From assembly GCF_029910235.1 (NCBI RefSeq), contig NZ_CP112874.1:1860001-1924000 (forward strand): DNA of 64,000 bases, in the 5' to 3' direction. Positions within the stretch are counted from its first letter, which is position 1; the number at the start of each line of letters is the position of its first letter. The stretch is from Pseudanabaena galeata CCNP1313. Lineage in GTDB: Bacteria > Cyanobacteriota > Cyanobacteriia > Pseudanabaenales > Pseudanabaenaceae. Positions 28,137 through 28,550 of this stretch are shown piece after piece. A program made the translations under genes and the position numbers. The notes below the pieces were generated by a model. The model was given only the letters and a program-made list of their open reading frames with translations, ran no database searches and was not told the DNA's origin.

Positions 28137-28550
28137 ATGGCTTCTTTAACTATTAGTGATGAAAACATAGAACTATTCAATAAAGTAAAGATAGAACGAG
28201 ATTATTCTTATATTTTATTTGGATTAAGCTCTGACAATTCAACACTTGAATTTCGAGGTTCAGGTGATAAAAATCATAACTTTGATGACATTAAATCTGA
28301 ACTTCCCAAGGCAGATGTTGCGATTGTTGTCTATGACTTTGAGTATGAAACCAATGAAAACCCTCCTCGCCAAACTTCAAAATTAATCATCATTTTTTGG
28401 TGTCCGATGCAGGTTCCGATGAGACGGAAATTTGCTTTGACCAGTGCAGAATCTGAAATAAAAACGTCCTTCGTAGGAATACAAAAAGCCTTTAAATTAA
28501 CTGAGTATGAAGAAGTTGATTTTGTCGATATAACTAAGAAACTGCTTTAA
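28137..28550 (+). CDS. ADF/cofilin homologue
   Basis: 137 residues, the normal length of an ADF/cofilin, with no introns. The fold-defining stretches all align in order: MASLTISDENIELFNKVK, YILFGLS, VVYDFEYET (62-72), SKLIIIFWCP (81-90), then the long helix PMRRKFALTSAESEIK. In yeast cofilin Arg96 and Lys98 at the start of this helix bind actin; here Arg96 and Lys98 stand at the same place. Ser3 is also kept. No actin or profilin gene is visible in the window. AT-rich composition and a lone position between hairpins suggest acquired cargo, probably of eukaryotic origin. Confidence 0.85.
   Translation: MASLTISDENIELFNKVKIERDYSYILFGLSSDNSTLEFRGSGDKNHNFDDIKSELPKADVAIVVYDFEYETNENPPRQTSKLIIIFWCPMQVPMRRKFALTSAESEIKTSFVGIQKAFKLTEYEEVDFVDITKKLL

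Follow-up and report, generated by a model that had tools for sequence, protein, structure and literature searches.

The cyanobacterium Pseudanabaena galeata CCNP1313 carries on a genomic island a gene whose product is, with near certainty, an ADF/cofilin, and the closest relative found for this gene lies beside a eukaryote-type actin gene in another cyanobacterium, Spirulina sp. CCY15215. Cofilin is a eukaryotic protein for taking actin filaments apart, and it represents the turnover half of the actin cytoskeleton. Cyanobacteria are already described as having picked up actin and profilin, and cofilin is a further cytoskeleton gene of this sort. With slightly better than even confidence, we read the product as a working actin-binding protein whose partner would be an actin in the cell. 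The gene would come from a mobile pool of actin genes that cyanobacteria obtained from eukaryotes, and it is carried here without actin. The gene belongs to known kinds, the ADF/cofilins and the eukaryotic cytoskeleton genes of cyanobacteria, and does not represent a new kind. What goes beyond the preliminary description of this DNA is the missing actin partner, found beside the nearest relative in Spirulina.

The family assignment is based on a profile match that covers the domain from end to end. The window, the whole 64,000-nt stretch of DNA that was analysed, corresponds to C1:1860001-1924000 and contains the gene at the following position.

28137-28550, plus strand: ADF/cofilin gene, 137 aa (Pfam PF00241, 8.4e-23; PDB actophorin, 2.3e-18; 72% identity to L002:2350-2769 of Spirulina)

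The reading frame runs from ATG to TAA. The Pfam family Cofilin_ADF (PF00241) matches with 80.9 bits, above its curated cut-off of 22.4 bits, and residues 12-135 of the protein correspond to positions 3-125 of the 125 in the profile. It is the sole Pfam family found at E up to 1, and there is no second domain. In a phmmer search of the PDB, actophorin was the best match; next came yeast cofilin with its mutants, 5ivu (2.8e-15), and cofilins of fission yeast, insects, plants, and animals. A six-row profile made only from solved cofilins (two actophorins, 5ivu, S. pombe, Arabidopsis, and a yeast mutant) gave the protein 85.3 bits, whereas the highest score among 1,000 shuffled versions was 9.0. 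The AlphaFold model is weak (pLDDT 61, pTM 0.54), having been built from two sequences only. With this low-confidence model, the seven best Foldseek rows against the PDB were all ADF-H proteins (E 4.5e-4 to 4.0e-2), and the top 41 of the best 50 VIA-align rows were ADF-H as well (Z 6.2 to 3.9, where a Z below 8 is by itself no proof of the ADF-H fold). The next VIA-align row was USP7 at Z 3.5; no non-ADF-H row lies above this value among the best 50, which excludes nothing. The preliminary description had claimed a likeness to ADF over the full length of the frame and had named a profile search and a structure prediction as checks, and both agree with it, the second on a weak model. NCBIfam had no match for this protein, for the Spirulina ADF, or for the Streptomyces globisporus one. 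There was also no match in PADLOC, and identity as a defence family was rejected for this reason. A phage origin was likewise rejected, since no relative was found in phage records, IMG/VR, or PHROGs; in IMG/VR, 14 pattern matches with the cofilin protein and 331 with a three-row alignment included no relatives.

Some of the positions that we take to matter for actin binding, judged by alignment to yeast cofilin (R96, K98, K82, K105, E134, and others), are conserved and some are replaced. The segment VVYDFEYET and an actin-binding helix with Arg96 and Lys98 had been pointed out previously. Both are present, and R96 and K98 align to yeast R96 and K98, presumably the basic pair of the actin-binding helix; they are found in the Spirulina protein too. 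K82 and E126 are retained, and D123 is replaced by E. The position of yeast S4, the N-terminal Ser, is Ala in both cyanobacterial cofilins, and yeast K105 is E in both. Yeast E134 is K in the window protein, and across the two cyanobacterial proteins it is K or R. From this alignment, the monomer-binding face looks retained and the filament face partly altered. The protein thus resembles the eukaryotic ADF/cofilins (actophorin 1ahq, yeast 1cfy, Arabidopsis ADF1 1f7s) in its single full-length ADF-H domain and in R96, K98, K82, and E126. It differs from them in being only 21-28% identical, in the changes at S4 and K105, and in coming from a genome in which no actin was found. Actin binding, severing, and an actin-cofilin partnership are predicted for it.

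The cofilin gene lies inside an island, about 55.7 kb long, that interrupts comM. The contig C1 has 4,928,719 bases and belongs to a 5.84-Mb genome of 6 contigs, which is given as 100% complete and 0.31% contaminated. The junction words of the island are at C1:1857927-1857943 and at window 53604-53620. The split Mg_chelatase gene, which we take to be comM/YifB, has its C-terminal half to the left of the window, where it starts near C1:1857930 and continues leftward. The following features were found in the window.

13443-19300, plus strand: type III restriction-modification genes, Res at 13443-16457 and Mod at 16511-19300 (family matches and PADLOC)
23947-25296, plus strand: ParA/MinD-type ATPase of the island backbone (AAA_31, 6.7e-31; 86.7% identity with L038 over 23576-26003)
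26217-27167, plus strand: backbone gene common to L038 and L041 (no Pfam family at 0.001)
27098-27931, plus strand: upstream neighbour of the cofilin gene (weak nuclease-like matches to DUF559, DUF2726, and MTES_1575)
30674-32530, plus strand: NERD and UvrD helicase, a candidate defence gene (family matches; PADLOC C3a187, 7e-267)
44005-44919, plus strand: ArdC-type antirestriction protein (ArdcN, 2.2e-20; MPTase-PolyVal, 3.8e-52)
52170-53576, minus strand: serine recombinase at the right end and junction of the island (Resolvase, 3.6e-21; Zn_ribbon_recom; Recombinase)
53561-54640, minus strand: N-terminal half of comM/YifB (Mg_chelatase, 7.3e-71, profile 1-154 of 207)

The location in a mobile element that had been proposed for the gene is therefore borne out by the split comM gene and the serine recombinase. 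A plasmid source of the cofilin neighbourhood was rejected, as window 20700-34800 has no plasmid match. The GC content of the cofilin gene is 33%, compared with 41.6% for the island, which could be taken as a sign of contamination or an assembly artefact. However, the gene is inside a 4.93-Mb contig, the stretches to its left and right occur in congeners, and a second bacterial copy exists in Spirulina, so that the chance of an artefact is practically negligible.

In a congener, a CRISPR-like array is found in place of the cofilin gene. The congener G013 (locus L038) has counterparts of window 23576-26003 (87% identity) and 26073-27972 (83%), separated by one additional gene. The neighbourhood in common extends to window 27972 and includes the upstream neighbour at 27098-27931. 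In L038 the same left-hand neighbours are followed by an array of 11 repeat copies spaced 73-80 bases apart, with one larger gap of 388. Four features surround the cofilin gene in the window.

27985-28027, plus strand: single CRISPR-like repeat upstream of the cofilin gene (its core, CCCCTACTCGCTAGGGGA, occurs once in the window)
28602-28612, plus strand: second copy of the 3' tail of the repeat, CGATTGGAAAC, downstream of the cofilin gene
28621-28657, plus strand: perfect inverted repeat after the cofilin gene (17-nt arms, 100% complementary)
29352-30487, plus strand: IS630-type insertion element (HTH and DDE_3 frames at 29438-29956 and 29974-30480)

Window 27986-28029 matches four repeats of the L038 array at 83.7-87.5%, and the single repeat is provisionally called CRISPR-like after the repeat-spacer array in L038. 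Its last 11 bases, CGATTGGAAAC, are present in two copies in the 64 kb, at 28017 and 28602, flanking the cofilin gene. Shuffled sequences had a mean of 0.04 copies and none of 100 had two, for a pattern that was spotted post hoc; the bases preceding the second copy differ from the first repeat. There is a hint here that the cofilin gene may have entered by recombination at an array relic. The inverted repeat gives an RNA fold of -25.8 kcal/mol (z -7.3 vs 200 shuffles) and is likely an intrinsic terminator; it was not among the results of a pattern scan. A search for promoters gave six promoter-like matches compared with 5.1 expected, and none was assigned. The insertion element, presumably of the IS630 type, has at least six further full-length copies in its own genome (at least seven near-identical copies in all), and its site is present without the element in a congener (L039). 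The transposase of this element is in two reading frames, which are probably joined by frameshifting.

The evidence for an actin partner comes from Spirulina. A scan of genome contigs, which reaches close relatives only, gave 46 stretches matching the pattern, and one of these was a relative, the cofilin of Spirulina sp. CCY15215 at L002:2350-2769 (72% identity over 137 residues). On the same 7.9-kb contig and the same strand, 2.4 kb downstream, is a complete eukaryote-type actin gene (L002:5187-6302; PF00022, 3.6e-135, 451 bits), whose product has 74% identity to C. elegans actin. As an order of magnitude, we put the chance of a cofilin landing within 2.4 kb of the sole actin gene found in the 5.5-Mb Spirulina genome at one in a thousand. 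Genes for GmrSD (GmrSD-N) and DUF2254 flank the cofilin-actin pair, and three further contigs of this genome (C243, C464, and C473) contain a 32-nt repeat of the contig with one or two mismatches (5/8 matches, with 0 for the reversed control). These flanks and the repeat indicate that the contig is bacterial and not contamination. The pair is unlike in base composition (GC3 of 0.22 for the ADF and 0.44 for the actin), suggesting that the two genes need not have arrived together. The GC content is 46% for the actin gene and 31% for the GmrSD gene, a bacterial gene as AT-rich as the ADF gene, so low GC alone is no mark of foreignness for the latter. Between the cofilin and actin genes, L002:3123-3749 encodes a protein of 208 aa with two similar halves (a 107-nt direct repeat, 79%), which has weak matches to DUF6795 and carboxypeptidase-regulatory-like families, below cut-off.

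The Spirulina actin has changes where a cofilin would be expected to bind. The DNase loop is short by about ten residues. In the cleft we chose 13 positions as those where cofilins presumably bind; eight are as in C. elegans actin and five are not (H143, R169, M345, S349, and R355). The loss in the DNase loop and the five changed positions suggest that the Spirulina pair may fail to bind in the customary manner. One hypothesis is that the acidic E105 in the cofilin helix and the more basic actin cleft would form a changed but matching contact. Q137, which we take to be catalytic, is T in the Spirulina actin, and it is also replaced in five other aligned cyanobacterial actins (G, A, R, G, and D). 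No plasmid with an actin of the Spirulina type was found at 1e-10. In a word search of the main text of the genome paper for this Spirulina strain (PMC7893532), actin and cofilin were absent.

Cofilin genes were rare in the genomes searched, and relatives of the Spirulina actin were found in several of them. The genome sets that were searched have one genome per species. PF00241 was found in one of 38 genomes of the order of Pseudanabaena galeata, one of 388 genomes drawn from its class, and one of 386 genomes drawn from the phylum to which Spirulina belongs. In the order the match was the P. galeata genome itself, and in each of the two draws, which may overlap, it was the genome at the centre of the draw. 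Since the only match in the order is the window's own, the two cofilin copies are in different orders. Relatives of the Spirulina actin were found in three of the 388 genomes of the class (one of them weak, 7.2e-4), in two of 50 in the family of G279, a Microcystis-like genome of the same class, and in four of 13 in the Spirulina family, Spirulina included. No eukaryote-type actin was found in the P. galeata genome, either with PF00022 (0/1) or with the Spirulina actin protein, and no profilin was found there. The absence of an actin gene near the cofilin had been noted before, and it extends to the rest of the genome. A hidden actin remnant near the cofilin gene was rejected as well: of the L002 frames, including actin, only the ADF has a match at 1e-3 in the island or in the flank to its left. 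The survey of related genomes for actin and profilin that had been recommended found actin beside the Spirulina cofilin and, in G279, an actin gene that adjoins a profilin gene. Profilin was found only in G279 among four genomes tested, and G279, as a member of the class draw, presumably has no cofilin match. The sets therefore differ: G279 has actin and profilin, Spirulina has actin and cofilin, and P. galeata has cofilin alone. The Spirulina and G279 actins have 58% mutual identity, and they are 74% and 66% identical to C. elegans actin.

The gene in P. galeata was almost certainly acquired laterally and is probably of eukaryotic origin. The two cyanobacterial cofilin genes have 81.6% DNA identity over 435 bp, a stretch that takes in the gene plus a few adjoining bases. 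Outside the gene, the DNA common to L002 and the island consists of one 32-base match elsewhere in the island, and a single operon common to the two organisms was rejected on this basis. The Spirulina gene is alike in protein, DNA, and its low GC content (33% in both), but it differs in its surroundings and in its proximity to actin. Comparison of the two genes gave dS of 0.47, dN of 0.16, and dN/dS of 0.34 (bootstrap 0.20-0.59), as an average over both lineages. These values agree with purifying selection, on the two-lineage average, and with a lateral transfer among cyanobacteria. This transfer appears recent and is counted in support of the reading favoured here.

The same data bear on whether the gene has any function in P. 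galeata. It could have come with the island as a functionless passenger that is intact only through recency, which we consider unlikely. Neither actin nor profilin was found in this genome, and it is the sole genome with PF00241 in its order, both of which speak for this explanation. So does a comparison with S. pombe cofilin as outgroup, in which the window copy had 12 changes and the Spirulina copy had 2 (p 0.013, uncorrected for the seven tests made). However, the other six outgroups gave p values of 0.057 to 1.0, and the pooled result was 7 to 3 (p 0.34), so faster decay of the orphan copy is not established. In addition, the reading frame is intact, a strong hairpin follows the gene, and dN/dS is 0.34, although as an average over both lineages this ratio is no proof of constraint on the window copy itself.

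Under the favoured explanation, that of a partner for actin inside the cell, cofilin would have entered cyanobacteria from a eukaryote and joined a small, mobile set of actin genes derived from eukaryotes. Its partner in bacteria would be, or would have been, a eukaryote-type actin made alongside it in one cell, as the neighbouring genes of Spirulina sp. CCY15215 suggest. The protein would bind actin subunits via the helix with R96 and K98 and would loosen or cut filaments. In P. galeata it would have come as cargo of the comM island without actin, and it would act only if actin comes from elsewhere, such as another mobile element, or on a second target. An in-cell partner is favoured because the nearest relative adjoins an actin gene inside a cyanobacterium; this is one neighbourhood, and two cyanobacterial cofilin genes of this kind were found.

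Two other targets can be considered, and both are quite improbable. The preliminary description had suggested cargo that acts on the actin of grazing amoebae or ciliates. The defence-type genes on the island are compatible with this, as is the lack of annotated actin within 6 kb of Streptomyces plasmid cofilins in four annotated regions, for which the gene table is incomplete. It is not supported as the first choice, since the nearest relative has an actin gene as its neighbour in a bacterial genome and the N-terminus, MASLTISDENI, has no leader by eye, in agreement with the earlier remark that an obvious export signal is missing. No secretion gene was found among 19 window proteins scanned, from 57 frames of at least 110 aa. 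Reuse of the cofilin on a bacterial filament such as MreB has a similarly small probability. The P. galeata genome has MreB (2.4e-140) and no eukaryote-type actin was found in it, but G279, presumably without a cofilin match, has MreB just the same, and nothing in the sequence points to MreB.

A bacterial cofilin as such is not new, as shown by Streptomyces plasmid genes and by PDB 5ivu, whose title is Streptomyces griseoflavus cofilin. Six Streptomyces plasmid records match the cofilin-like protein of S. globisporus, its own included; three of the genes are annotated as cofilin family protein and one as hypothetical protein, and two records have no annotation. The preliminary description was right to rank a bacterial cofilin with the actin and profilin of Microcystis as another such case, but it is not the first bacterial one. 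The Streptomyces proteins are alike in being bacterial members of the ADF/cofilin family, six of them on plasmids, but three of the six have other residues at R96 and K98. They also form a separate clade (100/100) in a 14-row tree, and the window protein lies outside it, in another clade with the Spirulina protein (100/100). The stem of the latter clade is long (1.42) and joins yeast, S. pombe, and 5ivu at an open fork (89/95). The tree includes few eukaryotes, and no donor lineage stands out in it. The 5ivu protein is 51 and 57% identical to two yeasts and 51% to 7sog actophorin, and it groups with yeast cofilins; it is possibly a contaminant or a separate transfer. On the S. globisporus plasmid (L007:5209-10007), the neighbours of the cofilin-like gene look like EF-hand proteins, a cyclophilin, and a subtilase, with the frames judged by eye.

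The closest known parallel among cyanobacteria is the eukaryote-type actin and profilin (ActM and PfnM) of Microcystis aeruginosa PCC 7806, which are described as encoded on a genomic island (PMC3254629). The P. galeata cofilin resembles this system as an island-borne, eukaryote-type cytoskeleton gene taken up by a cyanobacterium, in its case on a comM-splitting island with a serine recombinase. It differs in that Microcystis has actin plus profilin and P. galeata has cofilin alone. A eukaryote-type actin in the same genome, as in systems of this type, is found in Spirulina and not in P. galeata, and the window cofilin is a relative of part of such a system but is not itself one. The actin-profilin pair of G279 resembles the PCC 7806 pair as described in that paper, from whose text the words cofilin, ADF, and gelsolin are absent. 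No report of a cyanobacterial cofilin was found in the titles and abstract openings of the literature searched.

Cofilin beside actin in a cyanobacterium means that bacteria have received transplanted parts not only for building filaments but also for taking them apart. The Spirulina pair opens the question of what role a minimal foreign actin system has in a bacterial cell, and the orphan copy in P. galeata raises the harder question of what retains a cofilin in a genome without actin. A broader proposal, which we regard as tentative and somewhat doubtful, is that cyanobacteria share a mobile kit of eukaryote-derived actin parts that breaks apart, with full actins, actin and profilin, actin and cofilin, and reduced actins that have lost the greater part of the outer subdomains as parts that move separately between orders. 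Spirulina would then have a bacterial actin-cofilin turnover pair, the first known to us, with a changed contact, in which R169 and R355 of the actin would face E105 of the cofilin, a residue that is kept in the window copy.

Several other actin-like genes were observed in cyanobacterial genomes. Reduced actins of 249-265 aa are found in three genomes from two families (L004:1174-1971, minus strand; L023:9423-10220, minus strand; L024:9483-10232, plus strand). Subdomains 2 and 4 are largely absent from them, and residues of the nucleotide site are altered. The one that was tested (from G299) matched the NCBIfam syringactin family with 103 bits, below the cut-off of 300, and the word syringactin was not found in the literature searched. 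A genome of the Spirulina family has a broken eukaryote-type actin consisting of about the first 160 residues (L022:10422-10946, minus strand). This fragment has 84% identity to C. elegans actin over 167 columns and keeps the DNase loop, and it stops where a transposase-like frame, judged by eye, starts.
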